Below, piece by piece: positions 15,681 through 29,305 of a DNA stretch of 33,092 nucleotides. A program made the translations under genes and the position numbers. The DNA is from Prevotella sp. (lineage in GTDB: Bacteria; Bacteroidota; Bacteroidia; Bacteroidales; Bacteroidaceae). The stretch lies in NCBI GenBank assembly GCA_017476785.1, contig JAFUZD010000060.1, forward strand, positions 1 to 33,092, read 5' to 3'. The notes beneath the pieces were generated by a model, which was not told the origin of the DNA, made no database searches, and saw only the letters and a list, made by a program, of their open reading frames with translations. Numbering within the stretch: the stretch's first letter is position 1; each line of letters starts with the position of its first letter.

Positions 15681-15710
15681 CGGAACGGCCGTCGCGCCAT
15701 TGTTTCAAAA

Positions 15711-15777
15711 GCTGGGGAGTGTTGCTCCGCGGCCTCGGGAGCATCACTCCCCAGCCTGCGGAGCATCACTCCCCAGC
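15711..15777 (+). repeat. Short direct and inverted repeats between convergent genes
   Basis: GGAGCATCACTCCCCAGC occurs at 15738-15755 and again at 15760-15777, a 22-bp period. An inverted relative (GCTGGGGAGTGTTGCTCC, 16 of 18 positions) is at 15711-15728, so the copies can pair. I see no coding potential. Confidence 0.8.
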
Positions 15778-15811
15778 TTGCGGAGAAACGCTTCGGGGGC
15801 TGGGGAAGGCG

Positions 15812-15892
15812 CTCGGAGGGCTCGGAGCTCTCGGAGAACTCGGAGCGCTCGGAGAACTCAGAGACCTCCGAGAGCTCCGAGCCCTCCGAGTC
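15812..15892 (+). repeat. Nine 9-mers forming a 25-bp perfect hairpin
   Basis: Nine tandem units of CTCGGAGnn form; the last three read CTCCGAGnn, the reverse complement of the core. As a result 15812-15836 and 15866-15890 are exact reverse complements (25 bp) around a 29-base loop of further units. It lies between the convergent fructokinase and Ntn hydrolase genes, three bases from the hydrolase stop, and could terminate in both directions although it has no T-run. Confidence 0.85.
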
Positions 15893-17141: not shown

Positions 17142-17246
17142 TTTTGTTGAGAGTTGAGAGTGTGCTGCCCTCCCAACTTCGGCGGCAGCAATCTCCCACA
17201 CTCTCAACTCTTCATTCTCAATTTCTCAATTCTCAACTCTCAATTA
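17142..17246 (-). repeat. Heptamer-armed inverted repeat, copy D
   Basis: GAGTTGAGAGTGTG (17151-17164) pairs perfectly with 17197-17210, with a 32-base loop containing an inner CTGCC/GGCAG stem. The outer arm continues as TTGAGAGT/TTGAGAAT heptads up to the stop codon of the TonB receptor, which lies within the arm (CTCAATTA). It has the arm type of copies A-C but a different loop. Confidence 0.75.
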
Positions 17247-20027
17247 CAGCGTCAGCCCTACCTTTGCGAACACGTAGCGGCCGTTGAAGCCGAACTGCTG
17301 GCTGGTGCGCGAGTAGAGGAAGTAGCCACTACCCGTGTTGCTGCCGTGCGTGCGAGCAGGATAGACGTCGAACAGGTTGTTGGCACCCAATGCCAAGTGG
17401 AGGGCCTTCGTGGCCTGATAGCCTACGGTGAGGTCGGTCACTACGCGTCCGTTGAACACCTCCTGATTCTCCACCGTGTTCGAGGCAGCGGTGGTGCGTC
17501 CGAACCAGTTGTTGCGCAGGAAAATGTCCCACTGGCCTCCGCGCCACGAGAGCGAGAGGTTGATTTTCTCGCGGGGCACGGCCTTCTCGATGTAGATGCG
17601 GCTCTGTCCGTCCAGATAGCTGTCTTCCTTGCCGGCCAATACGGTCGATGCGTGCACGTTCTTCACCTTCGTGTGGATGTAGCTGGCCGAGAGGTCGGCG
17701 CGCAGCTGGCCACCCCAGAGGGCGTGCTTGTAGGTGAGCACGGCGTCGATACCGCTGGTCTCCGTGTCGATGGCGTTGGCGAAGAAGCGTGCCGACGAAG
17801 CACCGGCATCGGTCAGGATGGTGTAGATTTCGCGGTCCTGCTCAGAGGCGTCGGCTGCATTGCTGCCGCTGAACTGACCGGTGTAGATGATGCGGTCGTT
17901 GATGCGGATGAAGTAGCCGTCGACGGTCAGCGAGAAGTTGCCGAAGCGTCCGGTGACGCCGCCGCTCAGGTTGTAGCTCTTCTCAGCCTTCAGCTTGGGG
18001 ATGCCCAGCAGCTGAGCCAGTCGCGAGTCGTTGCGGAAGGTGCCGCTCTGGATGATTTCGCCGTCGCTCCAGAGGCTGGACGTGGCACTGAAGTAACGCT
18101 GGTGGAGCGAGGGAGCGCGGAAGCCCGTGCTGGCCGTAGCGCGCACCGACCAGTCGTCGGTCAGCTTGTAGCGCAGCGACAGCTTCTCGGTCAGCGTAGA
18201 GCCGAAGTCAGAATAGTTCTCGAAGCGCAGGGCACCCGACACGAGGAAGGCCTTCGTGATGTTGAAGTTGGCATCGGCATAGAGCGCTATCGATGAGCGG
18301 GTGCCCACGGCAGCGTTCTCAGCGCGGAATCCCGGGAAAGCCTGTGCACCGCCGGCATAGTTGGAGCCGTTCTGTGCCTTCAGCGTCTGCACCTCGCCGC
18401 GCTCGTCCTGAATGAGGATGGGGTCGCCGTTGGCATCGGTGCCCACCTTAGTATAGCGGCCGAAGTCTACGTACGAGTTGCGCTCGCCCTCTACCAGCTC
18501 ATACTTCTCGTAGCGGTGCTCGGCGCCCAGTGCGAGGCTGATGCCAGCCAGTGCGTCGGCAAAGGTGCGCGTCAGGTCGAAGTTGGTCGTGTTCTGCGTG
18601 AAGCGGTAGCCACCGGCATTGAAGGCCGTGGGCGATGCCTCGAGCAGCGATGCGTTGAGCGAGTTGGTTGTGGTGAAGTCGATGGTGTTCTTACCATACG
18701 TGTTCGAGAAGTCGAAGTCCCACTTTCCAATCTTTCCGCGGATACCGAGCGAGAGCGACTGGTCGATGTTGTCGGTATTGATGAGCGGCAGGAAGCCGTC
18801 GGGATAGATGCTGGCAATGTTCTGCGTCAGCTGTGCGGGCTGGCGGCGGAAGGCAGCCGATTCGCCCTTGCGGTAGTTCAGACCGCCGAAGCTGTAGAAC
18901 TCAGAGTGGTCGCTCAGCGGCACAATCGAGTTGATGAAGAGCGCGCCGCCACGCAGCTTCGACTGACCGATGCGGCTGACGTAGTCGCCGCGCGTGCGGC
19001 CCAGCCGTGCCAGCGTCTCGTCGGTGACGTCGGCACCCGTGGGGTTGGGGTAGAGGTCAGGGAAGTTGTAGTCATTGAAGATGGTTCCCGTGAACTCCTC
19101 CTGACGGTTGGTGGGGTTGCGATAGTCGAGCGAACCGGCAAAGTTGATGAAGCCGCCCTTCTTGCCAAGCTTGAAGCCGAGGTTGGCATTGGCCTGAGCC
19201 GTCTCGCCGTCGAGCGTGTGCTCGGAGTGCTTGGACAGATAGCCGCCGCCGGCCAGATTGATGCGGGCATTGTCGGTGTTGTCTTCCAGAATGATGTTGA
19301 TTACACCGGCAATGGCATCAGAGCCATACTGTGCCGAAGCACCGTCGCGCAGAATCTCGATGCGCTTGATGGCCGAGGTGGGGATGGCGTTGAGGTCGAT
19401 ACCTACCGAGCCCTTACCGAACGAACCGTTGATGTTGACCATCGACGTGGTGTGGCGGCGCTTGCCGTTGATGAGCACCAGCACTTGGTCGGGACCCAGT
19501 CCGCGCAGCGAGGCGGGGTCGATGTGGTCGGTAGCGTCGGCGATGACCTGCGTGTTCGAGTTGAACGACGGGGCGGCGTAGTTCAGAATCTGGTTGAGGC
19601 TCACCTGACCTACATCTTTAAATACGGCATTATCGATGACGTCGACAGGTGCCGGTGAGTCGAGCCGTGAGCGGGGCACCGAACGGTTGCCCACCACCAC
19701 TACGTCGTCCAGTGCATCCTGTGCGCGCAGATAGAAGTTGAAGCGGATGGGCTTGTTGTCCTTAATGACCAGCGTCTTGCGCTGCTCGCCATAGCCCACG
19801 TACGAGGCGACGATGGTGTACGAACCGCGCTTCAGGTCGAACGCGAAGTCACCGTTGACGGCCGAAGTGGCGTGGATGTTGGTTCCTTCAACTCGGATGA
19901 TGGCACCCGGCAGATAGCCGTTGTCGTCGACCACCTTTCCAAACACTTTCACCTGTGCCTGTACGCCGATGGCCACGATGGCCAGCAGCGACAGGACTAA
20001 CAATCTTTTTACTTTGTTCTTTTCCAT
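17244..20027 (-). CDS. TonB-dependent outer membrane receptor
   Basis: A 927-residue outer membrane importer. The signal peptide (RLLVLSLLAIVAIGVQAQ) is followed by a carboxypeptidase-regulatory-like domain (about 26-105), a plug (VVVVGNRSVPRSRLDSPAPV; LRGLGPDQVLVLINGKRRHT; IEILRDGASAQYGSDAIAGV) and a barrel ending VGLTL. It is not of SusC type and has no SusD partner, so a small ligand such as a metal chelate, cofactor or sulfur compound is more likely than a glycan; the substrate cannot be read from the sequence. Upstream it shares an intergenic region with the LuxR-type regulator, which contains the 46-bp element found at sulfur genes. Its own -7 box is 87 bp from that element, so coregulation is only a possibility. 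Confidence 0.88.
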   Translation of the reverse strand: MEKNKVKRLLVLSLLAIVAIGVQAQVKVFGKVVDDNGYLPGAIIRVEGTNIHATSAVNGDFAFDLKRGSYTIVASYVGYGEQRKTLVIKDNKPIRFNFYLRAQDALDDVVVVGNRSVPRSRLDSPAPVDVIDNAVFKDVGQVSLNQILNYAAPSFNSNTQVIADATDHIDPASLRGLGPDQVLVLINGKRRHTTSMVNINGSFGKGSVGIDLNAIPTSAIKRIEILRDGASAQYGSDAIAGVINIILEDNTDNARINLAGGGYLSKHSEHTLDGETAQANANLGFKLGKKGGFINFAGSLDYRNPTNRQEEFTGTIFNDYNFPDLYPNPTGADVTDETLARLGRTRGDYVSRIGQSKLRGGALFINSIVPLSDHSEFYSFGGLNYRKGESAAFRRQPAQLTQNIASIYPDGFLPLINTDNIDQSLSLGIRGKIGKWDFDFSNTYGKNTIDFTTTNSLNASLLEASPTAFNAGGYRFTQNTTNFDLTRTFADALAGISLALGAEHRYEKYELVEGERNSYVDFGRYTKVGTDANGDPILIQDERGEVQTLKAQNGSNYAGGAQAFPGFRAENAAVGTRSSIALYADANFNITKAFLVSGALRFENYSDFGSTLTEKLSLRYKLTDDWSVRATASTGFRAPSLHQRYFSATSSLWSDGEIIQSGTFRNDSRLAQLLGIPKLKAEKSYNLSGGVTGRFGNFSLTVDGYFIRINDRIIYTGQFSGSNAADASEQDREIYTILTDAGASSARFFANAIDTETSGIDAVLTYKHALWGGQLRADLSASYIHTKVKNVHASTVLAGKEDSYLDGQSRIYIEKAVPREKINLSLSWRGGQWDIFLRNNWFGRTTAASNTVENQEVFNGRVVTDLTVGYQATKALHLALGANNLFDVYPARTHGSNTGSGYFLYSRTSQQFGFNGRYVFAKVGLTL

Positions 20028-20067
20028 ACTTTCTCTTGTTTAGTTCGATAATCAAAACTTTCGAGGG

Positions 20068-20075
20068 CAAAGGTA
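20068..20075 (-). promoter_or_regulatory. -7 box of the TonB receptor gene
   Basis: Read on the minus strand, TACCTTTG fits TAnnTTTG and lies 40 bases upstream of the start codon. A TTTG at 20088-20091 is too close for a standard -33 box. Confidence 0.5.
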
Positions 20076-20120
20076 CGGGGTTCTTAACAAATGTAAAATA
20101 CCATCTTGGGGGCATTTTTC

Positions 20121-20159
20121 CTACCGCTTGTTGGGTACGGAAAGGCATTTCAGCGGTAG
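20121..20159. promoter_or_regulatory. 8-bp inverted repeat between receptor promoter and 46-bp element
   Basis: CTACCGCT (20121-20128) and AGCGGTAG (20152-20159) are exact reverse complements with a 23-base spacer. It lies between the receptor promoter and the 46-bp element, so it may be a second operator acting on the receptor gene. I know of no regulator with this site. Confidence 0.4.
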
Positions 20160-20161
20160 GC

Positions 20162-20207
20162 ATACCATACGTTAGGTAGCCAAAATACCCCGCTTGTGCG
20201 ATTTCCC
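20162..20207 (-). promoter_or_regulatory. 46-bp shared promoter element, copy 1 (regulator gene)
   Basis: On the minus strand it reads GGGAAATCGCAC, then N6, GGTATTTT, N3, TACCTAACGTATGGTAT. It aligns without gaps to copies at 22770 and 29117. Its GAAATC end is 18 bp from the -7 box of the LuxR-type gene, the same spacing as at the other two promoters. The partly palindromic end points towards the TonB receptor gene. Confidence 0.7.
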
Positions 20208-20224
20208 ATATCGGCCGAAATCCG

Positions 20225-20232
20225 TAATTTTG
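20225..20232 (+). promoter_or_regulatory. -7 box of the LuxR-type regulator gene
   Basis: TAATTTTG fits TAnnTTTG. The GAAATC part of the 46-bp element covers the -33 position, which otherwise has no TTTG. Confidence 0.55.
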
Positions 20233-20281
20233 CACGCATCAATCACGCTGTTGGACAGCAACTTATCACACATCTATCAAT

Positions 20282-20923
20282 ATGGTGCACTACATCTTGG
20301 CCGACAATCAGGAGCTGACCCGCGCGGGGCTCGAGGCAATCATCCGCAACGACCGCGACGCCGAAATACTGCACGCCTCGAACAAGGCGAGGCTGGTGCA
20401 GCTGCTGATTGCTAACGAATATGCTACGGTGGTCATCGACTACCGGCTGTTCGACTTTGTCGACGACGAGAACTTCCTCGTCGTGGTGGAGCGCTTCCAG
20501 ATGGCCTCGTGGGTGCTCATCTGCGACGAGCTGACCGACAGCCATATCCGCAAGCTGGTCTACTCGAGCCAGAACATCAGCATCGTCTTTAAGGACTCGC
20601 CGCTGAGCAATATCCGCGATGCCATCAGTGCTGCCACGCGCCGCTCGCGCTACATCTGCCAGCGGGCCACGGAGATACTGCTCAGCCGCGAACAAAACGA
20701 CACCACCGTGCAGCGGCTGACGCTGACAGAGGTGGAGATTGTGCGCGCCATAGCGCAGGGGAAGACGACGAAGGAGATTGCTGCCGAGCGTTTCTCGAGC
20801 ATTCACACCATCAATACGCACCGCAAGAACATCTTCCGCAAGCTCAATGTCAACACGGCCCACGAGGCGGTGAAGTATGCACTGCGCGCCGGGCTGGTGG
20901 ATACGGAAGACTTTTATATCTGA
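20282..20923 (+). CDS. Orphan LuxR/NarL-type response regulator
   Basis: A 213-residue transcription factor. The N-terminal receiver domain (about 1-125) has Asp8 (LADNQ), the expected phosphoacceptor Asp53 (VVIDYRL) and Lys in VFKDSPL. The C-terminal LuxR helix-turn-helix (about 145-205) shows LTLTEVEIVRAIAQGKTTKE and FSSIHTINTHRKNIFRKL. No histidine kinase is encoded nearby. Only one acidic residue of the usual pair is clear near Asp8, so phosphorylation may be weak or absent. Its promoter carries the 46-bp element shared with the carrier and cysK promoters; because LuxR-type proteins bind palindromes of about 18-20 bp, it is a reasonable candidate to control itself and the sulfur genes. 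That last step is inference. Confidence 0.85.
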   Translation: MVHYILADNQELTRAGLEAIIRNDRDAEILHASNKARLVQLLIANEYATVVIDYRLFDFVDDENFLVVVERFQMASWVLICDELTDSHIRKLVYSSQNISIVFKDSPLSNIRDAISAATRRSRYICQRATEILLSREQNDTTVQRLTLTEVEIVRAIAQGKTTKEIAAERFSSIHTINTHRKNIFRKLNVNTAHEAVKYALRAGLVDTEDFYI

Positions 20924-20926
20924 AAT

Positions 20927-21023
20927 TAATTGAGAATGGAGAATTGGGAATGGAGAATTATGATTAGCTCATACGCTTGAAAGTAATCATAATTCTCCAT
21001 TCCCAATTATCAATTCTCAATTA
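20927..21023. repeat. Conserved-loop hairpin repeat, copy A
   Basis: Two 40-base arms (20927-20966 and 20984-21023) match as reverse complements with only two mismatches, around a 17-base loop whose complement reads CTTTCAAGCGTATGAGC. The arms are heptamer-periodic (GAATGGA, GAATTGG). The right arm ends in the stop codon of the JAMM gene. It separates two convergent genes and may act as a terminator. Confidence 0.85.
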
Positions 21024-21416
21024 CAAAGGATAATGTTGTTCCTTTTCCACCACTTCGCCCTTCAGAATGCGGAAGGAGTTGAGCACAACGTGGCCGTCGG
21101 CCAGCGAGAGGATGGCATAGCGGATGTTGGGGTCGTTGGCCAGTCGAAGGTCTTCCTGCGAAGGACGTGAGGGACTGGCAGGGTGCGAGTGCCAGTTGGC
21201 CAGAATGCGGAGCCCCTTTTGACGGGCATACTTCAGGGCGGCAAACTGGTCCTTCGGTGCAAAGGAGAAATGCTCGGCCGAGTGGTCGATGTTCTCCATC
21301 CAGTAGTTCTCGGTGACGGTGTCGTCAGTGCCCAGCAGATAACCGCAAGTCTCCAGTGGAGCATCGCGGCGTGCCTGCTCAATCATCTCGGCTATTACGT
21401 TGTCGTTGATCTTCAT
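21021..21416 (-). CDS. JAMM/MPN+ metalloprotease, HcyD/Mec-like
   Basis: A 131-residue JAMM-domain zinc peptidase. Metal and catalytic residues are all visible: Glu22 (ETCGYLLG), His76 and His78 (NWHSHP), Ser86 and Asp89 (HxH-x7-S-x2-D). Bacterial stand-alone JAMM proteins of this size process ubiquitin-like sulfur carriers: Mec of Mycobacterium tuberculosis frees cysteine from CysO, QbsD removes the Cys-Phe tail of QbsE, and HcyD of Wolinella trims HcyS. The E1 and carrier genes lie upstream on the same strand, so trimming the carrier's C-terminal tail to expose Gly-Gly is the likely job. Its stop codon lies in the arm of repeat copy A. Confidence 0.85.
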   Translation of the reverse strand: MKINDNVIAEMIEQARRDAPLETCGYLLGTDDTVTENYWMENIDHSAEHFSFAPKDQFAALKYARQKGLRILANWHSHPASPSRPSQEDLRLANDPNIRYAILSLADGHVVLNSFRILKGEVVEKEQHYPL

Positions 21417-21430
21417 CGTTCTTTTAATTT

Positions 21431-21571
21431 AGCTAATAGTTGATAGTTGATAGTTTATAGTGAAGAGTTTATAATGAATAGTTATGATTACTTTCGAGCG
21501 TATGAGGTAATCATAACTATTCACTCTTCACTATAAACTATAAACTCTTCACAACAAACTATCAACTGTTT
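21431..21571. repeat. Conserved-loop hairpin repeat, copy B
   Basis: The inner stem is 16 bp perfect (21476-21491 with 21507-21522) around the loop TTTCGAGCGTATGAG. Longer arms of TAGTTGA/TAGTTTA heptads extend on both sides, with an indel between them. It fills the 160-base gap between the E1 and JAMM genes of one operon, so it probably lies within the transcript. Confidence 0.85.
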
Positions 21572-21576
21572 CATTG

Positions 21577-22383
21577 TCAGTGTTTCAAATCGCAGGCCGT
21601 CTGTTCGTAGTCGATGAGACGGTCAATGGTAGGATGGTCGCCACAGACTTCGCACGTGGCGCGGCGCTTCACGTTGATGGTGCGGAACTGCATCTGCTTG
21701 GCGTCGAACGTCAGCAGGCGGTTGGTCAGCAGCTGACCGATGCCCGTGATGTATTTCAGAGCCTCGGCCGCCTGAATGGTGCCCAGCATTCCGGCGATGG
21801 CACCCAGCACACCGGCCTGCGAGCAGGTGGGTACGGCTCCGGCGGGCGGCGGCTCCTTAAAGAAGCAGCGGTAGCAGGCCGTGCCGGGCAGATGGGTGAA
21901 CGTCTGTCCGTTGAAGCGCAGGATGCCTCCGTGCGAGAAAGCCTTGCCCGCCATCACACAGGCGTCGTTGATGAGAAACTTCACGGGGAAGTTGTCCGTG
22001 CCGTCGATGACGAAGTCGTAGGGCTCGATAATCTGACGGGCGTTGGCCGAGTCGAGGAACTCGTGATACGTCTCAACCTTCACGTCGGGGTTGATGGCCT
22101 GCATCTTCTGGCGCGCGCTCTCCACCTTCGGCGTGCCTACGTCGCGGGTGAAGTGGATAATCTGCCGTTGCAGGTTGCTCAGGTCCACCACGTCGGCGTC
22201 TACGATGCCGATGGTGCCCACGCCGGCAGCGGCCAGATAGAGGGCGGCTGGCGCACCCAGTCCGCCAGCTCCCACGATGAGCACGCGGGCACCCAGAATC
22301 TTCTCCTGTCCCTCCACGCCCACGTCTTTCAGTAGGATGTGGCGCGAGTAGCGTTCTATTTGCGATTCACTGAAGTCGTACAT
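21577..22383 (-). CDS. ThiF/MoeB/HcyF-type E1-like adenylyltransferase
   Basis: A 268-residue E1-like enzyme that would adenylate the C-terminal glycine of a ubiquitin-like sulfur carrier before sulfur transfer. Seen: start YSRHILL, ATP-binding GAGGLG (38-43), IDGTDN (Asp130), zinc-binding pairs Cys170/Cys173 (ACYRC) and Cys244/Cys247 (CEVC), and Cys187 in TCSQAGVLG, where related enzymes have a reactive Cys. There is no rhodanese domain, so sulfur must come from another donor. MoeB and ThiF are close paralogs, but no molybdopterin or thiamine genes are present; the carrier, JAMM and MetY neighbours favour an HcyF-like role in homocysteine synthesis. Confidence 0.88.
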   Translation of the reverse strand: MYDFSESQIERYSRHILLKDVGVEGQEKILGARVLIVGAGGLGAPAALYLAAAGVGTIGIVDADVVDLSNLQRQIIHFTRDVGTPKVESARQKMQAINPDVKVETYHEFLDSANARQIIEPYDFVIDGTDNFPVKFLINDACVMAGKAFSHGGILRFNGQTFTHLPGTACYRCFFKEPPPAGAVPTCSQAGVLGAIAGMLGTIQAAEALKYITGIGQLLTNRLLTFDAKQMQFRTINVKRRATCEVCGDHPTIDRLIDYEQTACDLKH

Positions 22384-22399
22384 AATCTTAGTTTTTAAT

Positions 22400-22492
22400 T
22401 TATAGTTGATAGTGGATAGGTGATAGTTATGATTTGTTTCGAGCGTTTGAAGTAATCATAACTGTCAACTGTTCACTGTCAACTCTCAACTA
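22400..22492. repeat. Conserved-loop hairpin repeat, copy C
   Basis: AGTTATGATT (22425-22434) pairs with 22454-22463 around a loop containing TTTCGAGCGTTTGA, nearly the loop of copies A and B. Outer arms are GATAGT/GTTGACA heptads. The right arm overlaps the end of the sulfur-carrier gene and appears to supply its last codons and stop. Confidence 0.8.
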
Positions 22493-22703
22493 CGAAACAG
22501 CCTCCTCCCATAAAGTAGAGGAAGTCTACCGTGTCGCCCTCGTTGACCGTTGTCTTGTCCCAGTCGTCACGGTCTACAAACTCGTCGTTCAGTTGTACGC
22601 TGACCATTTCGGGCTGCTCCACGTCGCTTGCAGCTATCAGCTGGGCCAGCGAAGCGGGCAGCTGCAGGTCGCGCTGCTCTCCGTTGATGGTAATTGTTGC
22701 CAT
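22479..22703 (-). CDS. ThiS/HcyS-like ubiquitin-fold sulfur carrier with C-terminal tail
   Basis: A 74-residue ThiS/MoaD-family protein, beta-grasp in pattern (MATITINGEQ start; NEGDTVDFLYFMGGG end). Active carriers end in Gly-Gly, which becomes a thiocarboxylate. Here the glycines (66-68) are followed by CFVVES. A Cys-Phe tail after Gly-Gly is known in QbsE and is removed by a JAMM protease; the last residues and stop appear to come from the arm of repeat copy C. The JAMM and E1 genes downstream and divergent metY fit a thiocarboxylate sulfur donor for homocysteine. ATG 22703 is used; an upstream GTG frame to 22757 would cross the promoter. ThiS for thiamine is the alternative, but no other thi genes are near. 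Confidence 0.85.
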   Translation of the reverse strand: MATITINGEQRDLQLPASLAQLIAASDVEQPEMVSVQLNDEFVDRDDWDKTTVNEGDTVDFLYFMGGGCFVVES

Positions 22704-22744
22704 AGATGATGCGTATATATTAATATGGTGTTGGTTATCGTGGG

Positions 22745-22752
22745 CAAAGGTA
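22745..22752 (-). promoter_or_regulatory. -7 box of the carrier-E1-JAMM operon
   Basis: Minus-strand TACCTTTG fits TAnnTTTG, 42 bases upstream of the carrier start. The GAAATC end of the 46-bp element begins 18 bp further upstream, at the -33 position. Confidence 0.6.
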
Positions 22753-22769
22753 CGCATTCAGCCCGACGT

Positions 22770-22815
22770 GCGAAATCCCACCAGTAAGGTATTTCCGATA
22801 CCAAACGTTTGGTAT
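22770..22815 (+). promoter_or_regulatory. 46-bp shared promoter element, copy 2 (carrier/metY)
   Basis: Reads GCGAAATCCCAC, N6, GGTATTTC, N2, then the perfect 18-bp palindrome ATACCAAACGTTTGGTAT at 22798-22815. One end covers the -33 position of the carrier promoter; the palindrome touches the -33-like box of metY. It can therefore control both divergent genes. Confidence 0.75.
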
Positions 22816-22845
22816 TGTGGGTGTACCAGAAAATAAGTATCTTTG
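22814..22845 (+). promoter_or_regulatory. metY promoter
   Basis: -33-like ATTG (22814-22817) and -7 TATCTTTG (22838-22845) are 20 bases apart. The -33 box overlaps the last bases of the palindrome, a position where a bound protein could block or recruit polymerase. Confidence 0.6.
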
Positions 22846-22897
22846 CAGCGGAAAAGAAGCAGTACATTTATTTATCAGGACAAAAGAAGAGAAAGAT

Positions 22898-24139
22898 ATG
22901 GCATCCTATGAATCGAAAATACTCTCTGCGCGCTATGCCAAGCCCGATGCCCACGGGTCGCTGGCAATGCCGGTATACCACGCTGCGGCCTATGAGTTCC
23001 CGTCGGCACAGGCGATGGCCGATGCATTCTGCGGTCGCTCGCCGGCTCACAGCTATTCGCGCATTTCCAACCCCACCGTGCAGCAGCTGGAACGCCGTGT
23101 GCAGCAGGCCACCGGTGCCCTGAGTGTGACGGCCCTGAATACAGGTATGGCTGCCATCAGTCACGCACTGATGAACGTGGCGAGTGCGGGACTTAACATT
23201 GTGGCCTCGCCCCACGTCTTTGGCAACAGCCATTCGCTGCTGGGCGACACGCTGACCGCGCTGGGCGTCGAGACCCGCTGGGCCGACTTCCGTGATGTGG
23301 CAGAAGTGGAGCGGCAGATGGACGACAACACCTGTGCCGTCTTCTTCGAGATGATTACCAATCCGCAGCTCTATGTGACCGACCTGCGCGCCATCAGCGA
23401 AGCTGCCCATCGCCATAACGTGCCAGTGATAGCCGACACAACTATCATCCCTTTCACTGTGTTCCACGCTCCCGACTTCGGTATCGACATTGAGGTGATT
23501 TCCAGCACGAAGTATATCTCGGGCGGTGCCACGTCGCTGGGCGGACTGCTCATCGACTATGGCCGTTTCGATTGGAGCCGTGCCCACGTAGCCCCGCCAC
23601 TGCTGCGGCGCACCAAGCGGGTAGGGCCCAAGATGGCTTTCACCGCCCGGCTGAAGACCGAGCTGGTGACTAATCTGGGCTCACTGATGTCGCCTCACGC
23701 TGCCTATATGCAGACACTCGGGCTGGAGACGCTGGCCCTGCGGTTCGATAGACAAGCCTCGTCGGCACTGACACTGGCCCGTGAGTTGCAGCACACAGCG
23801 GGTATCGTCAGCGTCAATTACCCCGGACTGGAAGACAATCCCTACCACGAGTTGGCCGTCAGTCAGTTCGGACCGCTGCCCGGAGCGATGCTGACCATTG
23901 ATGCCGAGAGTCGCGAGGCCGCCTTCCATCTGATAGACCACTTGCAGCTGGTGCGCCGGGCCACCAATCTCTTCGACCATCGCAGTCTGGCCATCCATCC
24001 CGCCAGCACCATCTTTGCGCTGTTCAGTGAGGAAGAGCGGCAGCAGATGGGCATCAGTCAGCAGACCATCCGGCTGAGCGTGGGACTGGAAGACCCGGCC
24101 GACATTGCGGCCGACATTCGGCAGGCTATTGGCGTATAA
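22898..24139 (+). CDS. metY: PLP-dependent O-acetylhomoserine sulfhydrylase (MetY-like)
   Basis: A 413-residue enzyme of the Cys/Met-metabolism PLP family, which replaces the acetyl group of O-acetylhomoserine with sulfur to give homocysteine. Seen: SYSRISNPTVQQLE near the N-terminus, ALNTGMAAI (PLP phosphate loop), ADTTI, and the Schiff-base Lys205 in SSTKYISGG. Homologues with cystathionine synthase/lyase activity look alike, so the exact reaction is not certain. Linkage to carrier, E1 and JAMM genes points to the Wolinella-type route in which MetY takes sulfur from a protein thiocarboxylate. ATG 22898 is preferred because a frame from 22817 would begin upstream of the -7 box. Confidence 0.82.
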   Translation: MASYESKILSARYAKPDAHGSLAMPVYHAAAYEFPSAQAMADAFCGRSPAHSYSRISNPTVQQLERRVQQATGALSVTALNTGMAAISHALMNVASAGLNIVASPHVFGNSHSLLGDTLTALGVETRWADFRDVAEVERQMDDNTCAVFFEMITNPQLYVTDLRAISEAAHRHNVPVIADTTIIPFTVFHAPDFGIDIEVISSTKYISGGATSLGGLLIDYGRFDWSRAHVAPPLLRRTKRVGPKMAFTARLKTELVTNLGSLMSPHAAYMQTLGLETLALRFDRQASSALTLARELQHTAGIVSVNYPGLEDNPYHELAVSQFGPLPGAMLTIDAESREAAFHLIDHLQLVRRATNLFDHRSLAIHPASTIFALFSEEERQQMGISQQTIRLSVGLEDPADIAADIRQAIGV

Positions 24140-24170
24140 GCTACTTCACCTTATTATATATATAATATAT

Positions 24171-24234
24171 ATCCCAACAAAGAACGCCCGTTCGGCAGGT
24201 TGCATCTGCCAGAACGGGCGTTCTTTATTGGGAT
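24171..24234. terminator. Bidirectional terminator between metY and desulfurase genes
   Basis: AAAGAACGCCCGTTC pairs with its complement ending 24226 around a GGCAG/CTGCC top; the stem extends outward through CCCAA/TTGGG to about 28 bp with one bulge. A-rich and T-rich flanks suit termination on both strands. An AT-only stretch precedes it (24151-24172). Confidence 0.9.
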
Positions 24235-24247
24235 GGATGTCTCTTTA

Positions 24248-25729
24248 TCAGCGGCGTTCGCCCACAATCTTGTGCAGGGCGACGACCAGTCGGTCTACAT
24301 CTTCTTTCGTGTTGTAGATGGCAAACGTGGGGCGCACGCTGGCTTCGTAGCCCAGTGCACGCAGGGCGGGCTGGGCGCAGTGGTGCCCGGCACGCACGGC
24401 AATGCCCTCTTTGTCGAGCAGGGTGCCGGTCTCGGTCACGGGTACGCTGTCGAGCACGAACGATACCACGCTGACGCGGTGCTTGGGATTGCCGATGAGC
24501 GTCAGTCCCGGCACTCCGGCCAGCTGCTCGCGGGCATACTCTGTCAGCCGGTGCTCGTGCTGCTCAATGTTGCGGATGCCCACACGGCTCACGTAGTCCA
24601 GCGCCTCGCCCAGTCCGATGGCATCGGCCACATTGGGCGTTCCGGCCTCAAAGCGGGCCGGCGGCTCATTGTACTCCGTGCGCTCGATGGTCACATCCTT
24701 AATCATATTGCCACCTCCCTGCCACGGGCGCAGCTTGTCCAGCCACTCCTTACGTCCGTAGACGGCACCGATGCCGTTGGGGCCGTAAATCTTGTGGCCC
24801 GAGAAGACGAAGAAGTCGGCTCCCAGTTGCTGTACGTCGACCTTTGTGTGGGCAATACTCTGTGCGCCGTCAATGAGTACGGGCACGTTGTGCGAGTGGG
24901 CAATCTGGATGATGCGCTCCACGTCGTTGATGGTGCCGAACGTATTGTTTACATGGCCCACGCTGACGATGCGCGTACGCGGAGTGATGAGCCGTTCCAG
25001 CTCAGAAAGAATCAGGTCGCCGTTCCGGTCGATGGGGATGGCACGCAGCTCGGCTCCCTGCTCGTGGGCCACCTGCTGCCACGGCACGATGTTGGCGTGG
25101 TGGTCCAGCGTGGACACGATGATGTTGTCGCCCGGCGTGACGTACTGGCGGCCGAAAGTCTGGGCAATGAGGTTGATGCCCTCGGTGGTGCCGCGCACGA
25201 AGACGATGTTCTCAGCCGACGGCGCATTGATGAATCGCGCCACCGTCTCACGCGCCTTCTCATAGGCATCCGTAGCCCGTGCGGCCAGCGTGTGGGCGCC
25301 GCGGTGGATGTTGCTGTTGTAGGTGCGATAGTATTCGCTGATCTTATCGATTACTTGGTTCGGCTTCTGCGTCGTGGCACCGTTGTCCAGCCATACGAGG
25401 TCGTGGCCGTTCACCTTTTGGTTGAGCACGGGGAAGTCGGCCTTAATCTGGTCGGAGTTTAGGGTGTCGGCCTCCTCGTAGTTCAGCGAGCTGAGTTCGG
25501 CCTCGCCGAGGCGCTGCAACCCATTGCCCTCTCCTCCCGTGTGGGAGTTGATTTCTGACAGTTCGCTCAGCTTGAGGAACGCTTTGATGGGGTCGGCCTC
25601 TTCCTCCTCTGCATAGGAGTGGACGGCGGTAGAAAGCTCTTCGGGGCAATACTTCCGCGCCACTTGTCTCAGCATCTCGAACGTCGGGTCTTCCAATCCG
25701 CTGCCGTCGATGTTCTTAATGTCTATCAT
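24248..25729 (-). CDS. SufS-type cysteine desulfurase with N-terminal extension, probable encapsulin cargo
   Basis: A 493-residue class V PLP enzyme that takes sulfur from cysteine, leaving alanine and an enzyme persulfide. The catalytic domain starts near residue 93 (DQIKADFPVLNQ) and holds DNGATTQKP, Lys313 (SGHKIYGPNG, PLP) and Cys451 (RAGHHCAQP, persulfide). SufS enzymes are about 405 residues; this has about 90 extra at the N-terminus, acidic and low in complexity, with short conserved-looking blocks (DPTFEMLRQVARKYCPEE; DPIKAFLKL). In family 2 encapsulin systems such an extension directs the desulfurase into the shell, and the shell gene is directly upstream. Part of the linker (about 60-71) may derive from a G/C-rich repeat. 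ATG 25729 is chosen over TTG 25735. Confidence 0.9.
   Translation of the reverse strand: MIDIKNIDGSGLEDPTFEMLRQVARKYCPEELSTAVHSYAEEEEADPIKAFLKLSELSEINSHTGGEGNGLQRLGEAELSSLNYEEADTLNSDQIKADFPVLNQKVNGHDLVWLDNGATTQKPNQVIDKISEYYRTYNSNIHRGAHTLAARATDAYEKARETVARFINAPSAENIVFVRGTTEGINLIAQTFGRQYVTPGDNIIVSTLDHHANIVPWQQVAHEQGAELRAIPIDRNGDLILSELERLITPRTRIVSVGHVNNTFGTINDVERIIQIAHSHNVPVLIDGAQSIAHTKVDVQQLGADFFVFSGHKIYGPNGIGAVYGRKEWLDKLRPWQGGGNMIKDVTIERTEYNEPPARFEAGTPNVADAIGLGEALDYVSRVGIRNIEQHEHRLTEYAREQLAGVPGLTLIGNPKHRVSVVSFVLDSVPVTETGTLLDKEGIAVRAGHHCAQPALRALGYEASVRPTFAIYNTKEDVDRLVVALHKIVGERR
25517..25547. repeat. Possible G/C-rich repeat copy inside the desulfurase linker
   Basis: CTCCC-GTGT-GGGAG (25534-25547) preceded by CAACCCATTGCCC resembles the other G/C-rich palindromes. 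It is in frame and encodes a glycine-rich stretch (NSHTGGEGNGLQ) between the extension and the catalytic domain. More diverged than the other copies. Confidence 0.45.
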
Positions 25730-25744
25730 ACGCAAGTCATTCTA

Positions 25745-25779
25745 AGCCCCTCCCTTGCAGGAGGGGCTGGGGATGGGGT
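25745..25779. repeat. G/C-rich palindromic repeat, copy between shell and desulfurase genes
   Basis: AGCCCCTCC (25745-25753) pairs perfectly with GGAGGGGCT (25760-25768) around CTTGCA, then GGGGATGGGGT. It fills most of the 53-base gap between the shell stop and desulfurase start, so it should form a hairpin within the message. Confidence 0.8.
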
Positions 25780-25782
25780 TCC

Positions 25783-27222
25783 TTACTTTTCTACTTTGTT
25801 ACGGTGTTGGTAGTCGTGGTAGTAGCCCACTTCTACGTTCTCCAGCACGGCAATGGCGTCGTCGGTCAGTGCTGCCAGCGAGAAATACTTCGTTAGCAGA
25901 TACGATGCTACGCCAAACTTGTCGAGTCCCATCAGACGGGCCGACAGGCTGGGAGCTATCTCGCCGGGGATACCGCTCTGGTGCAGTCCCACTACGCCCT
26001 GATTCTTCTCGCCCGTGCGTACGAGGATGATGCTGGTGGTGCCCACGCCGCGATTGGTCAGGTACTGGCCCTGCACCTCTACTTTGTCCGACGGAATCAG
26101 GGGCACGCCGCGCCACAGGATGACTTTCGTGCCGAAGAGGTCGGTCGTCGTAGGCGGCACGCCGCGCCACGTGCACTCACGCTCGAAGGCTGCAATGGCC
26201 CGCGGGTTGGCGATGAAGAAGGCTGGCTCCTTCCATACCAGCGACAGCAGCTCGTCCAAATCGTCGGGCGTCGGTGAACCGTAGCGGGTTGAGATGCGGT
26301 AAGCGGGATTGGCCGAGGCCAGCAGTCCGAACTTCGGATTGTTGATGAGCTCCCACTCCTGACGCTCCTTGATGCTCTCTATTGAGAGGCGCAGCTGCTC
26401 TTCCAGCTGGTTGTAGGGGTTGTTGTACAGGTCGCTGACGCGGGTGTGGACGCGCACCACGGTCTGCAGCGTGTTGAGCGAATACTCAGTGGGCTGCTCC
26501 TCGTAGTCGATGTAAGTCTCGGGGATGATGTTGTCCTCCTCGTGGCCGCTCAGCAGGTCGATGTGCTTCTCGCCGTGCTCATTGACCGTAGCCTTCAGGC
26601 GCAGCTGCTTGTCTACGGCTTTCTGGAACGTCTCGCGGAAGTCGGGTACCTCTTTGATAAATGTCTCCAGTTCCTTACTTTCCAGTGTGAAGAATACGCC
26701 CGGCGTGACGGCACGCACCGATACCGTTGCCGTAGTATCGTTGAGCAGGTCGGCCTCGCCGAAGAACTCGCCCTCGCCGAGCAGTGCGATGCGCAGTTCC
26801 TCGCCGTGCAGACCGCGGCTGATGACCTCAGCCTGTCCGCTGGCTACGATGAAGAACTTGAGCGGGTCTTTCTCGGCTTTGATGAGATACTTGCCCAGCT
26901 CTACCTCTTCGGTGACGAAGCGGCGTGCCAGTCGCGTCACCACCTCCTCGCTGAAGTCGGAGAAGAGCGGGATGCTCTGCAGGCTCTTGGCGCGGAAGCT
27001 CGGTTCGCCGTTGAAGTATTCCACGGGCACGCGCTCGCCTTTCTTCAGTTCCACCTTCGTGCGGTTCACGCGGTAGGTGCCACCGCTCACTTGCACCCAC
27101 GGCAGCAACTTGAGCAGCAGTCTCGGGGTGATAGACCCCATCTGTGGGGCGGTTTTGGTTGTGGTGGCCAGTTTTCTGGCCGTTGCAGTAGTCACACTGC
27201 GCTGTAAGTTTGAGTCAGCCAT
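25783..27222 (-). CDS. Family 2 encapsulin shell protein with cNMP-binding-like domain (2B type)
   Basis: A 479-residue protein that I recognise as a family 2 encapsulin, an HK97-fold nanocompartment shell. N-terminal blocks (TTKTAPQMGSITPRLLLKLL; YRVNRT) and the C-terminal part (LQTVVRVHTRVSDLYNNPYN; NNPKFGLLASANP; TPDDLDELLSLVWKEPAFF; ALTDDAIAVLE) are typical of SrpI-like shells. Inserted at about 80-205 is a cyclic-nucleotide-binding-like domain (GEGEFFGEADLLNDTT), the mark of the 2B type. The Arg expected soon after FGExxLL is absent (TTATV at 163-167), so nucleotide binding is doubtful. Reading this as a Crp-type regulator would be wrong: there is no helix-turn-helix. The likely cargo is the desulfurase encoded next. 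Confidence 0.9.
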   Translation of the reverse strand: MADSNLQRSVTTATARKLATTTKTAPQMGSITPRLLLKLLPWVQVSGGTYRVNRTKVELKKGERVPVEYFNGEPSFRAKSLQSIPLFSDFSEEVVTRLARRFVTEEVELGKYLIKAEKDPLKFFIVASGQAEVISRGLHGEELRIALLGEGEFFGEADLLNDTTATVSVRAVTPGVFFTLESKELETFIKEVPDFRETFQKAVDKQLRLKATVNEHGEKHIDLLSGHEEDNIIPETYIDYEEQPTEYSLNTLQTVVRVHTRVSDLYNNPYNQLEEQLRLSIESIKERQEWELINNPKFGLLASANPAYRISTRYGSPTPDDLDELLSLVWKEPAFFIANPRAIAAFERECTWRGVPPTTTDLFGTKVILWRGVPLIPSDKVEVQGQYLTNRGVGTTSIILVRTGEKNQGVVGLHQSGIPGEIAPSLSARLMGLDKFGVASYLLTKYFSLAALTDDAIAVLENVEVGYYHDYQHRNKVEK

Positions 27223-27235
27223 TGTTTAGTCTTTT

Positions 27236-27517
27236 TTATTTTTTGATGATTACTTTATGCGTTGTTCCCTCTACGTGCTCCACGCTGAGCACGTTGTAGC
27301 CCTGTTCGATGGCGTTGCGCGGCACGTTGTCCAGCGGCTCGCCCTCGCTGAGCAGCACCTCCAGCGTGTCGCCCTCTTGCAGTTTGGCCAGTTCTATCTT
27401 CGTCTTGACGAAGGTCATCGGGCAGTGTTCCCGTGTAATGTCTAATACGTGCGACCTACCCCCAGCCCCTCCTGATGGGAGGGGAGACTGGTTGGTCTTG
27501 TTATCGTTGTTTGCCAT
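27236..27517 (-). CDS. TusA/SirA-family sulfur-transfer protein with repeat-encoded N-terminus
   Basis: A 93-residue TusA-like protein. The core begins VLDITREHCPMTFVKTKIEL; Cys32 in the CPM motif is the expected persulfide carrier, and a short beta-alpha pattern follows (GDTLEVLLSEGEPLDNVP). TusA proteins accept sulfur from desulfurases and pass it on, and DsrE-type proteins often partner them; both are neighbours here. Residues 10-22 (QSPLPSGGAGGRS) come from the G/C-rich repeat at 27455-27489 and are absent from what I know of the family, so the true domain starts near residue 24. It stops 13 bases before the shell gene starts. Confidence 0.87.
   Translation of the reverse strand: MANNDNKTNQSPLPSGGAGGRSHVLDITREHCPMTFVKTKIELAKLQEGDTLEVLLSEGEPLDNVPRNAIEQGYNVLSVEHVEGTTHKVIIKK
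27455..27489 (-). repeat. G/C-rich palindromic repeat inside the TusA-like gene
   Basis: On the minus strand it reads AGTCTCCCCTCCC-ATCA-GGAGGGGCTGGGGG, close to the copy at 27571-27610 in the opposite orientation. It is in frame and adds a proline/glycine-rich segment before the first beta strand. Confidence 0.8.
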
Positions 27518-27570
27518 TTCCTTTTCTCCTTTTCTTTTATCTATTAATTATTGTATATGATTCGCATTTT

Positions 27571-27610
27571 AGTCTCCCCCTCCCTTGGGGAGGGGCAGGG
27601 GGGTGGGTTC
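27571..27610 (+). repeat. G/C-rich palindromic repeat between DsrE-like and TusA-like genes
   Basis: AGTCTCCCCCTCCC-TTGG-GGAGGGGC, then GGGGGGTGGG, ending one base before the DsrE-like stop codon. It is inverted relative to the copy within the TusA-like gene about 90 bases away, so the two can pair in the transcript. Confidence 0.8.
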
Positions 27611-27611
27611 C

Positions 27612-28100
27612 CTAAATAAACAGCGTTTGTCCGCCTTCAGAGAGCTTGAGGAAAGACGCCACGCCGAGCACATCCTTCACTTCCGGGATGAAGTCTTCGC
27701 GTTTCAGGCCCAGCACGTGCATTGCCATCTCGCAGGCATAGAGGTTGATGCCCAGTGCCTTGGCGGCCTCTACCAGTTCTTCGAGCGTGGCCACGTTGTT
27801 CTTGCGCATCAGATAGCGGAAGATGCTCGGACCAGCACCGAAGAAGTTGAAGCGGCTGGTGGGGGTGGCACTCAGTCCGCCCATCATAAAGCCGAAGATT
27901 TTGGTCAGCCAGTTGCCGCCCACAAAAGCACGTCCGCGCTTTTGCTTGATGGCATCGAGCCCCCAGAAGGTGAAGAAGATGTTCACCTCGTAGCCCACGG
28001 CAGCAGCTCCCGTGCCCAGCGTGAACACGGCGGTCAGCTTGTCGAAGTCGCCGCTGAAGGCGATGATTGAGAGTTTCTTAACCTCGTTATTGTTTGCCAT
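27612..28100 (-). CDS. DsrE/DsrF/DsrH-like (DsrE2-type) sulfur-relay protein
   Basis: A 162-residue protein of the DsrE/F/H-like family. Seen: LSIIAFSGDFDKLTAVFTLG at the N-terminus, a hydrophobic VNIFFTFWGLDAIKQ, and the presumed active Cys in NLYACEMAMHVLGL. Such proteins bind persulfide sulfur and exchange it with TusA-type carriers in sulfur oxidation, storage or thiolation routes; the direction is not predictable. The hydrophobic middle (GNWLTKIFGFMMGGLS) suggests membrane contact, as proposed for DsrE2 proteins. The gene lies 20 bases after cysK and upstream of the TusA-like gene. Confidence 0.83.
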   Translation of the reverse strand: MANNNEVKKLSIIAFSGDFDKLTAVFTLGTGAAAVGYEVNIFFTFWGLDAIKQKRGRAFVGGNWLTKIFGFMMGGLSATPTSRFNFFGAGPSIFRYLMRKNNVATLEELVEAAKALGINLYACEMAMHVLGLKREDFIPEVKDVLGVASFLKLSEGGQTLFI

Positions 28101-28120
28101 TTTCTTTCCTTTCCTTATCT

Positions 28121-29053
28121 TTATTGGTTATACAACTTCGTTGACAGATAGCGCTCGCCGGTGTCGGGCAGCAGCACCACAATCTGTTTTCCCTCGTTCT
28201 CTATGCGCTGGGCAATGCGGATGGCTGCCACCAATGCCGCTCCCGACGATACCCCCGCCAGCAGTCCCTCGCGGCGTGCCAGCTGGCGTGCTGCCTCGTA
28301 GGCCTCTTCATCGCGCACGCGGATGATTTCGTCGTACACGCGGGTGTTGAGCACGCCCGGTATGAATCCCGCACCGATGCCCTGCAACTTGTGCGGACCG
28401 GGCTTCCCACCCGAGAGTACCGCCGAGCCCTGCGGTTCTACACCTACTATTTTAATATCGCGCTTGCGCGAGCGCAGCACCTCGCCCACTCCCGTGATGG
28501 TGCCGCCGGTACCGATGGCACTGACGAAGATGTCGACGCGTCCGTCGGTATCGCGCCATATCTCCTCGGCCGTCGTCTGGCGGTGAATCTCGGCGTTGGC
28601 AGGGTTTTCAAACTGTTGGGGGATGAAGGCATTGCCAATGTGCTCAGCCAGTTCGCGTGCCTTACGGATGGCACCGCCCATTCCTTCGTAGGCCGGTGTC
28701 AGCACGAGGCAGGCTCCCAGTGCGCGCAGCAGTGTGCGCCGTTCGAGCGACATTGCGTCGGGCATCGTCAGGATGAGGCGATAGCCGCGTATGGCGCAGA
28801 TGAAGGCCAGTCCGATGCCCGTGTTGCCGCTGGTGGGTTCGATAATCGTAGTGTCGGGGTCAATCAGTCCCTTACGCTCAGCGTCGTCAATGAGCGAGAA
28901 TCCCGTACGGTCTTTCACCGAGCGTGCCGGGTTCTGCATCTCCAGTTTGGCTATCACGCGCGCTTTCAGGTTCAGCTCCCGTTCGGTGCGTGTCAGCTCG
29001 AGCAGCGGCGTGTTGCCCAGTAGGTCAATGAGGTTATGAGCTATCTTTGCCAT
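28121..29053 (-). CDS. cysK: Cysteine synthase A (O-acetylserine sulfhydrylase)
   Basis: A 310-residue PLP enzyme making cysteine from O-acetylserine and sulfide. Seen: [10 protein letters not shown], the PLP Lys47 in [11 protein letters not shown], the phosphate/substrate loop TSGNTGIG, and [13 protein letters not shown]. Length and motifs are those of CysK. It is the first gene of the minus-strand run cysK, dsrE-like, tusA-like, shell, desulfurase. In Synechococcus, sulfur-regulated srpG (CysK-like) is linked in the same way to the SrpI encapsulin gene. A CysK here would supply cysteine as desulfurase substrate or use released sulfide. Its promoter holds the 46-bp element. Confidence 0.93.
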
Positions 29054-29091
29054 TGTATAATTGGTATAGTTTTTGTGAAATTACTGCGGTG

Positions 29092-29099
29092 CAAAGTTA
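29092..29099 (-). promoter_or_regulatory. -7 box of the cysK-encapsulin operon
   Basis: Minus-strand TAACTTTG fits TAnnTTTG and lies 39 bases before the cysK start. The 46-bp element begins 18 bp upstream. It is the only convincing promoter for the five-gene run. Confidence 0.6.
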
Positions 29100-29116
29100 C
29101 GCCGATTCCGATGCTT

Positions 29117-29162
29117 GCGAAATCGCACACGTATGGCATATCGCATACCAAACGTTTGCGAT
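29117..29162 (+). promoter_or_regulatory. 46-bp shared promoter element, copy 3 (cysK)
   Basis: Reads GCGAAATCGCAC, N6, GGCATATC, N2, ATACCAAACGTTTGCGAT (29145-29162). The central CAAACGTTTG is a perfect palindrome. The spacing inside the element and to the -7 box is the same as in copies 1 and 2. The helicase gene on the far side starts about 155 bases away, with its own -7 box, so it is probably not a target. Confidence 0.75.
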
Positions 29163-29305
29163 TTGCCGTTCCGCCCGCGTTGCCTATCGGCTGTGGTTGC
29201 CTGCTTCGGTGGGGACCTCGCCGAGCCAGTGGGTCGTGGTGATGAATTTGGGTGATGAGGGTGTGGATTTAGGCAGAAACCTGATGGAATTAGGTTTAAA
29301 TTGCC

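Follow-up and report, generated by a model that had tools for sequence, protein, structure and literature searches.

Which signal do the sulfur genes on a single Prevotella contig have in common, and which protein reads it? The stretch analysed here, hereafter the window, is 33,092 nucleotides of contig JAFUZD010000060.1 (assembly GCA_017476785.1). An initial annotation, made from the letters alone, had pointed out a 46-base-pair (bp) element at three promoters, those of a LuxR-type regulator gene (luxR), a thiS-type sulfur-carrier gene and cysK, and had proposed that one regulator controls them. We observed that the element is a shared operator that defines a regulon in this genome and in its relatives, of which we are nearly certain. 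With high confidence, we regard it as the operator of a cysteine/sulfur regulon under a NarL/FixJ-type LuxR protein, which would activate transcription through both of the dyads that make up the element.

The element and its promoters in the window

The three 46-bp copies were found at 20207-20162 (minus strand), 22770-22815 (plus) and 29117-29162 (plus), and the pattern given for them fits with 0, 0 and 1 mismatches, respectively. In 100 versions of the window with shuffled dinucleotides the pattern never occurred. The constant offset was also reproduced; in all three copies the T of the TAnnTTTG box comes 18 positions (17 bases between) after the GATTTC end. The count of three promoters was too low, as five full sites with equal spacing are present. 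The two overlooked sites precede a metY-type gene (38.2 bits) and a TonB-dependent receptor gene (38.8 bits), both of which had been named as possible members. The sites are as follows.

20158..20234, plus strand: luxR promoter element (distal dyad 20162-20179, proximal dyad 20185-20202)
20225-20232, plus strand: -7 box of the luxR promoter, TAATTTTG
20066..20142, minus strand: TonB-receptor promoter element (distal dyad 20121-20138, proximal dyad 20098-20115, box 20068-20075)
22743..22819, minus strand: thiS promoter element (distal dyad 22798-22815, proximal dyad 22775-22792, box 22745-22752)
22771..22847, plus strand: metY promoter element (the thiS dyads in reverse order; box TATCTTTG, 22838-22845)
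29090..29166, minus strand: cysK promoter element (distal dyad 29145-29162, proximal dyad 29122-29139, box 29092-29099)

These scores come from a matrix built on only five sites, all from other genomes of the genus, and scanned over the window. It gave 56.9 bits for the cysK element, 49.4 for thiS and 43.7 for luxR. The next-best score in the window, 6.1 bits, belongs to the cysK site read in antisense; reversal of the window gave 0.0 and -0.9, and the maximum over 20 shuffles was 7.8. As the foreign sites had been found with a pattern derived from the three annotated copies, the luxR, thiS and cysK scores are not fully independent. The TonB-receptor and metY sites were outside that starting pattern and are therefore independent of the matrix. 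A profile model (R1), trained on 12 sites including the TonB-receptor site of the window, matched the luxR element with an expect value (E) of 3.4e-16 and the TonB-receptor element with 1.3e-13 in the own genome.

The element had been described as a palindrome with a GAAATC end. The letters are as described, but they read better as two tandem 18-bp dyads of one kind, ATRCC-N8-GGYAT-like, 23 bp apart. In the gene-oriented alignment, ATACC stands at position x, ATRCC at x+23 and TAnnTTTG at x+63, so that the nearer dyad begins 40 bp before the -7 box; in the cysK copy of the window the distal half-site is ATCGC, not ATACC. The five foreign sites have the same spacing, the box of thiS in genome G052 starting with GA instead of TA. 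The core conserved in an alignment of 40 sites is AAATACCAAACGTTTGGTAT-N4-AATGCC-N8-GNGATT, followed by a variable stretch and GTACCTTTGCA. In most copies GNGAT forms the right arm of the proximal dyad, and in some (metY, TonB) GGTAT does. A 7-2-7 inverted repeat (TACCAAA-CG-TTTGGTA) can be read in the distal dyad of the thiS copy of the window, but over the 40 sites ATRCC-N8-GGYAT describes the conserved part better.

Between thiS and metY the two dyads (22775-22792 and 22798-22815) serve both directions, each being distal for one gene and proximal for the other. The same divergent arrangement on two common dyads, with an identical layout of the thiS site, is found in G052, and cysK of G037 is likewise preceded by the element. 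A second bidirectional layout was seen in G268, G141 and G226 (loci L251, L254 and L255), where divergent moeB/thiS and dsrE2-type genes have back-to-back elements that overlap by a few bases only.

The spacing is nearly rigid among 71 full-length sites from 26 genomes: in 52 the net change in length is zero, in 17 it is 1 bp, and the remaining two have 22-23 extra bases. These two (L277 in G045, before cysH, and L275 in G297) are longer by about one dyad spacing, and the cysH promoter seems to contain an additional, inserted dyad-like stretch. Another 13 matches, none of which begins before model position 17, consist mostly of the proximal dyad and the box; all five SDF-symporter promoters of that set are among them.

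Bacteroides promoters have -7 and -33 boxes (PMC7366714). If the T of the box lies at about -11, the proximal dyad would be centred near -42.5 and the distal one near -65.5, and the invariant ATT that ends the proximal dyad would fall at the -33 position.

The regulon in this genome and in its relatives

Outside the window, a further full site of this genome precedes a second metY-type gene (contig C102, E 1.9e-10), and an SDF-family symporter gene on C28 has a half site upstream, made up of the proximal dyad and the box (E 9.8e-6). More sites may have escaped, the genome being 89% complete. The annotation had anticipated the site before orthologous genes in relatives, and it is found there at cysK, metY, thiS/moeB, dsrE2 and luxR promoters. 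A pattern search of 119 relatives, blind to gene function, gave foreign sites at thiS/metY, at cysK-dsrE2, at the second metY-type gene (twice) and at a lipoprotein gene. Four of these five are at sulfur genes, and not scattered at random intergenic positions as a mobile repeat would be. That only five foreign genomes were matched reflects the strictness of the 41-letter pattern; the model later found sites in most LuxR-positive genomes of the genus.

We then took 28 genomes of the genus, hand-chosen, mostly nearly complete and LuxR-positive and thus not a random sample, and found that 26 of them carry sites, 84 in all at a threshold of E 1e-6; the two genomes without a site were both LuxR-negative. 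The element lies upstream of cysK, metY, moeB/thiS, dsrE2, the SDF symporter, cysH, sulfite reductase and luxR. After setting aside six sites without a downstream frame of at least 55 amino acids and three short or doubtful ones, 75 downstream proteins were searched against Pfam. The families were PALP (16), Cys_Met_Meta_PP (11), ThiF (7), SDF (5), DrsE_2 (5), GerE (5), TonB barrel (4) and YtkA (3), with one each of phosphoadenosine phosphosulfate reductase, sulfite reductase with a TusA domain, prismane and SusD. Sulfur-family or symporter proteins make up 46 of the 75 and the regulator-type GerE proteins five. From its family, the SDF symporter probably takes up cystine.

Outside the genus, 16 sites were found in 13 genomes of the order, and by the first open frame after the site eight are plainly sulfur-linked: CysK (3), a Cys/Met enzyme (2), ThiF (1), a tRNA 2-thiolation-type enzyme and an NAD_binding_7 protein, which we read as siroheme synthase. 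The other eight precede an ABC ATPase, OsmC, DUF4395, serine hydrolases (two), proteins of no family (two) or no frame (one).

A control model, made from 38 of the 40 sequences by reversing the columns ahead of the box and leaving the box as it is, matched none of 149 order genomes at E 1e-3, a search without a positive control as no genome is known to match it. In 444 kilobases around the true sites it gave one weak match (E 0.003), and in the best 80 of 562 loci none at E 1e-4, versus 66 matches of the true model in 44 of these loci. The core alone is not selective. With up to two mismatches in the own genome, TACCNAACGTNTGG had 80+60 matches versus 89+72 for its reversed control, and hence the palindrome by itself is unusable as a search pattern. 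An exact core match on contig C16, before another TonB receptor, was excluded, as the full model misses it at E 10.

The genes of the window that belong to this picture are listed below.

20282..20923, plus strand: luxR, NarL/FixJ-type response-regulator-like protein of 213 amino acids, the candidate regulator (GerE E 1.3e-14)
17244..20027, minus strand: TonB-dependent receptor, 927 amino acids, predicted regulon member (Pfam plug and barrel; upstream site)
22479..22703, minus strand: thiS-type sulfur carrier, 74 amino acids (TIGR01683 67.9 bits, cut-off 37.45)
21577..22383, minus strand: moeB/thiF-type E1 enzyme, 268 amino acids (PF00899; NF004281 289.3 bits, cut-off 266)
21021..21416, minus strand: JAB-domain protease, 131 amino acids (PF14464)
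22898..24139, plus strand: metY-type pyridoxal-phosphate enzyme (PF01053; start ATG probably at 22898)
28121..29053, minus strand: cysK, cysteine synthase A (TIGR01139 453.7 bits, cut-off 350.95)
27612..28100, minus strand: dsrE2-like protein, 162 amino acids (NF047629 66.4 bits, under the cut-off of 210)
27236..27517, minus strand: tusA-like sulfurtransferase, 93 amino acids (PF01206)
25783..27222, minus strand: family 2B encapsulin shell with a cyclic-nucleotide-binding domain (NF041163 562.1 bits, cut-off 400)
24248..25735, minus strand: class-V aminotransferase, SufS-type cysteine desulfurase by family, 495 amino acids (PF00266 E 9e-150)

The best NCBIfam model for the metY-type enzyme is TIGR01326 (O-acetylhomoserine/O-acetylserine sulfhydrylase), at 333 bits under its cut-off of 495. 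The same-strand spacing suggests an operon headed by cysK, in which case the cysK site would also drive dsrE2, tusA, the encapsulin and the SufS-type desulfurase. The carrier translation ends in GGGCFVVES; as its GG is not C-terminal, the protein is probably trimmed so that Gly-Gly becomes terminal. The JAB protease of this gene row would fit such a step and is the presumed enzyme for release of the tail. The outer-membrane receptors and lipoproteins still without assignment and the encapsulin operon share the site, and are thereby candidates for sulfur uptake or storage.

Some further features of these loci may be mentioned. In G313, G164 and G325 (L242, L245 and L246), elements lie within about 18 kilobases before a TonB receptor of 1021-1023 amino acids and YtkA-like lipoproteins, and also before a SusD-like protein (G313), a 161-amino-acid lipoprotein-like protein (G164, G325) and cysK or dsrE2; these loci are candidates for uptake of a still unassigned sulfur source. 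Secreted proteins of about 280-317 amino acids with a SPRFARPLVEKW-type start are repeatedly the first after the element (L247, L248, L251, L254 and L255), and the one member searched against Pfam matched no family. In the window, three imperfect intergenic hairpins of about 100 nucleotides, alike in sequence (20927-21023, 21431-21567 and 22396-22492), occupy the gaps of the thiS-moeB-JAB row and the stretch after it. Weak matches to microRNA models at 15699-15890 and 24160-24247 hint at more copies.

The LuxR-type protein and the alternatives

The proposal of one regulon with a LuxR-type candidate was supported by co-occurrence in the genus and in the order. In the genus, the element is present in 161 of 189 LuxR-positive and in 16 of 109 LuxR-negative genomes (both, LuxR only, element only, neither: 161/28/16/93; 73/12/4/46 among genomes at least 90% complete). 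Order-wide, it is present in 11 of 15 LuxR-positive versus 2 of 133 LuxR-negative genomes (Fisher p 8e-12), in nine families, and this co-occurrence owes little to shared ancestry. Among the 83 other order genomes that have this cysK type the counts were 10/4/2/67 (p 2.5e-8). The presence tables of the genus were compiled by hand, genus and order genomes being equated across searches by agreeing handles. Gene linkage points the same way. Of 562 loci the best 80, which differ in length, were used by name; in 75 of these 80 luxR is within the retrieved flank of a metY-type gene, compared with 0 to 9 for six unrelated genes of the window, and it adjoins cysK in G077, G101, G376 and G442. In the window, its neighbours are the TonB-receptor and JAB-protease genes.

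The protein has a C-terminal GerE/LuxR-type helix-turn-helix (PF00196 E 1.3e-14) and an N-terminal receiver-domain fold. Over its full length it gives profile matches to VraR/LiaR structures, and its fold matches, at 16-26% identity, include RcsB and LiaR. Among 18 sequences D53 and K104 do not vary, and D8 is retained, while the second acid is Asn; the roles of these residues are assigned by analogy. It is likely that a protein of this LuxR family binds the element.

Several observations weigh against this assignment. No site at E below 1e-8 was found in 28 of the 189 LuxR-positive genomes of the genus, and the genus-level counts are inflated by shared ancestry. Of the 109 LuxR-negative ones, 16 carry the element, and a profile search of these 16 revealed no convincing LuxR, the only match being to the helix-turn-helix part in G343 (E 5e-13). 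Twelve are under 90% complete, so that assembly gaps may explain some of the cases; the other four are at least 90% complete. A test of cysK promoters, covering the 29 of the 83 other cysK-bearing order genomes for which loci were obtained, gave, for the cysK copy inspected, no clear dyad in 6 of 14 LuxR-positive genomes and a high score in 1 of 15 LuxR-negative genomes (p 0.01). In addition, 24 of the 75 downstream proteins fall outside both the sulfur families and GerE (TonB receptors, SusD, peptidases, lipoproteins and the prismane protein). Control of luxR by its own product, as proposed from the window site, is not general; the element is within 150 bp upstream of luxR in only four of the best 80 loci (L138, L141, L156 and L195), and autoregulation thus appears to be a local trait. 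Finally, the genome encodes a LuxR paralog (L304, C126:31343-31975) with 50% identity, so that either protein may be the binder, and genomes that have only the lower-scoring LuxR type keep the element, so that the two proteins may share the operator.

This last point leads to the alternative that survives best, a possible though less probable one, in which the regulon is the same and the binder is the paralog (C126 type) or both proteins. It draws on the similar helix-turn-helix of the two proteins and on the presence of the element at E below 1e-8 in 67 of 85 genomes with only the lower-scoring type, versus 94 of 104 with the higher-scoring type (types sorted by hand at about E 1e-65). However, many genomes with several sites have a single LuxR match, of the window type (e.g. 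G313, G265 and G268), and the window luxR lies in a cluster with its own site, while the paralog has no full upstream site and an unrelated neighbourhood, which includes a CDP-alcohol-phosphatidyltransferase-like gene as read from the sequence.

A repressor role, in which the LuxR protein would block the -33 region in the presence of ample cysteine, is unlikely. The proximal dyad does touch -33, and a protein bound there could also exclude polymerase; however, two upstream dyads at a fixed distance, with the -7 box and the start left uncovered, fit activation better as far as layout can tell. A parallel for activation is ogt, where NarL acts from sites at -44.5 and -77.5 (PMC7419079). The regulator is therefore probably an activator.

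Still less likely is a third, unrelated transcription factor that binds the element, with LuxR as a mere member of the regulon. Such a factor would account for the site at luxR in the window and in some genomes, and for the element in the 16 LuxR-negative genus genomes and in two order genomes. Against it stand the co-occurrence in nine families, including genomes where luxR adjoins cysK, the dyad form, which is compatible with a NarL-type dimer, and the fact that luxR is rarely a target and yet tracks the element.

A mobile or structural repeat, or a riboswitch or other RNA element, has next to no probability as an explanation of the copies, for although several near-identical copies lie within one region, they vary at unconstrained positions, keep a fixed promoter distance, recur before orthologous genes and, being upstream of the -7 box, should be outside the transcript, and the window has no Rfam match at the gathering score (the only rows were sub-threshold microRNA and small nucleolar RNA models on the intergenic hairpins and a coding stretch).

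A proposed mechanism and its relation to known systems

With the LuxR-type protein as activator, the following sequence of events may be proposed. A dimer of LuxR, or of its paralog in some genomes, would bind each of the two tandem ATRCC-N8-GGYAT dyads. The position of the proximal dyad is constant, some 42 bp ahead of the predicted start, where it would touch the -33 region of the Bacteroidales promoter; the distal dyad, 23 bp further up, would support the proximal one. The bound regulator would assist initiation at TAnnTTTG by RNA polymerase that carries the primary sigma factor. A shortage of reduced sulfur would in this way lead to more cysteine synthesis, sulfhydrylation and sulfur-carrier chemistry, and probably to more cystine uptake; we somewhat favour sulfur limitation as the signal.

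A broader proposal, to which we give slightly less than even weight, is that throughout the order Bacteroidales cysteine and sulfur metabolism has one master activator, a NarL-type regulator whose receiver is degenerate. It may sense the sulfur state directly, without a kinase; its dyad pair could drive two divergent promoters at once, and its regulon would include the encapsulin operon, the ThiS-type module and outer-membrane receptors for as yet unassigned sulfur sources. Bacteroidales are a dominant order of gut and rumen, where sulfide production depends on such genes, and control of cysteine and sulfur genes there appears undescribed in the open-access literature searched. In agreement with the annotation, which knew of no such site, we recognised no described Bacteroidota site or sulfur regulator in that literature. 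The element supplies an operator that can be tested, together with a gene list and a candidate for the regulator.

Among the structural relatives of the protein, VraR, LiaR and RcsB control cell-envelope stress and capsule or motility genes. A LuxR-family regulator is known in Bacteroidales, CdhR of Porphyromonas gingivalis, described in connection with haemin uptake and community development. The consensus heptamer of NarL is TACYYMT. The candidate resembles NarL in being, by fold and domain, a response regulator with a GerE-type DNA-binding domain, and differs from it in the heptamer (TACCAAA here), in the distance between dyads (23 bp here, 33 for NarL), in its sulfur-gene targets and in the Bacteroidales-type promoter. 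In function, the likeness is to CysB, CymR and McbR/CysR, in each of which one regulator stands over cysteine synthase, sulfur reduction and cystine uptake genes. These belong to families unrelated to LuxR, CysB being of the LysR type, CymR of the Rrf2 type, McbR of the TetR type and the corynebacterial CysR of the ROK type. According to PMC7419079, the NarL operators are inverted 7-base repeats 2 bp apart, a layout that can be read into the distal dyad here, and activation of Escherichia coli ogt uses two dyads, one of which abuts the -35 box, just as one of the two dyads here would abut the upstream promoter box. If the proposal is true, a NarL-type regulator does in Bacteroidales what CysB or CymR do elsewhere.

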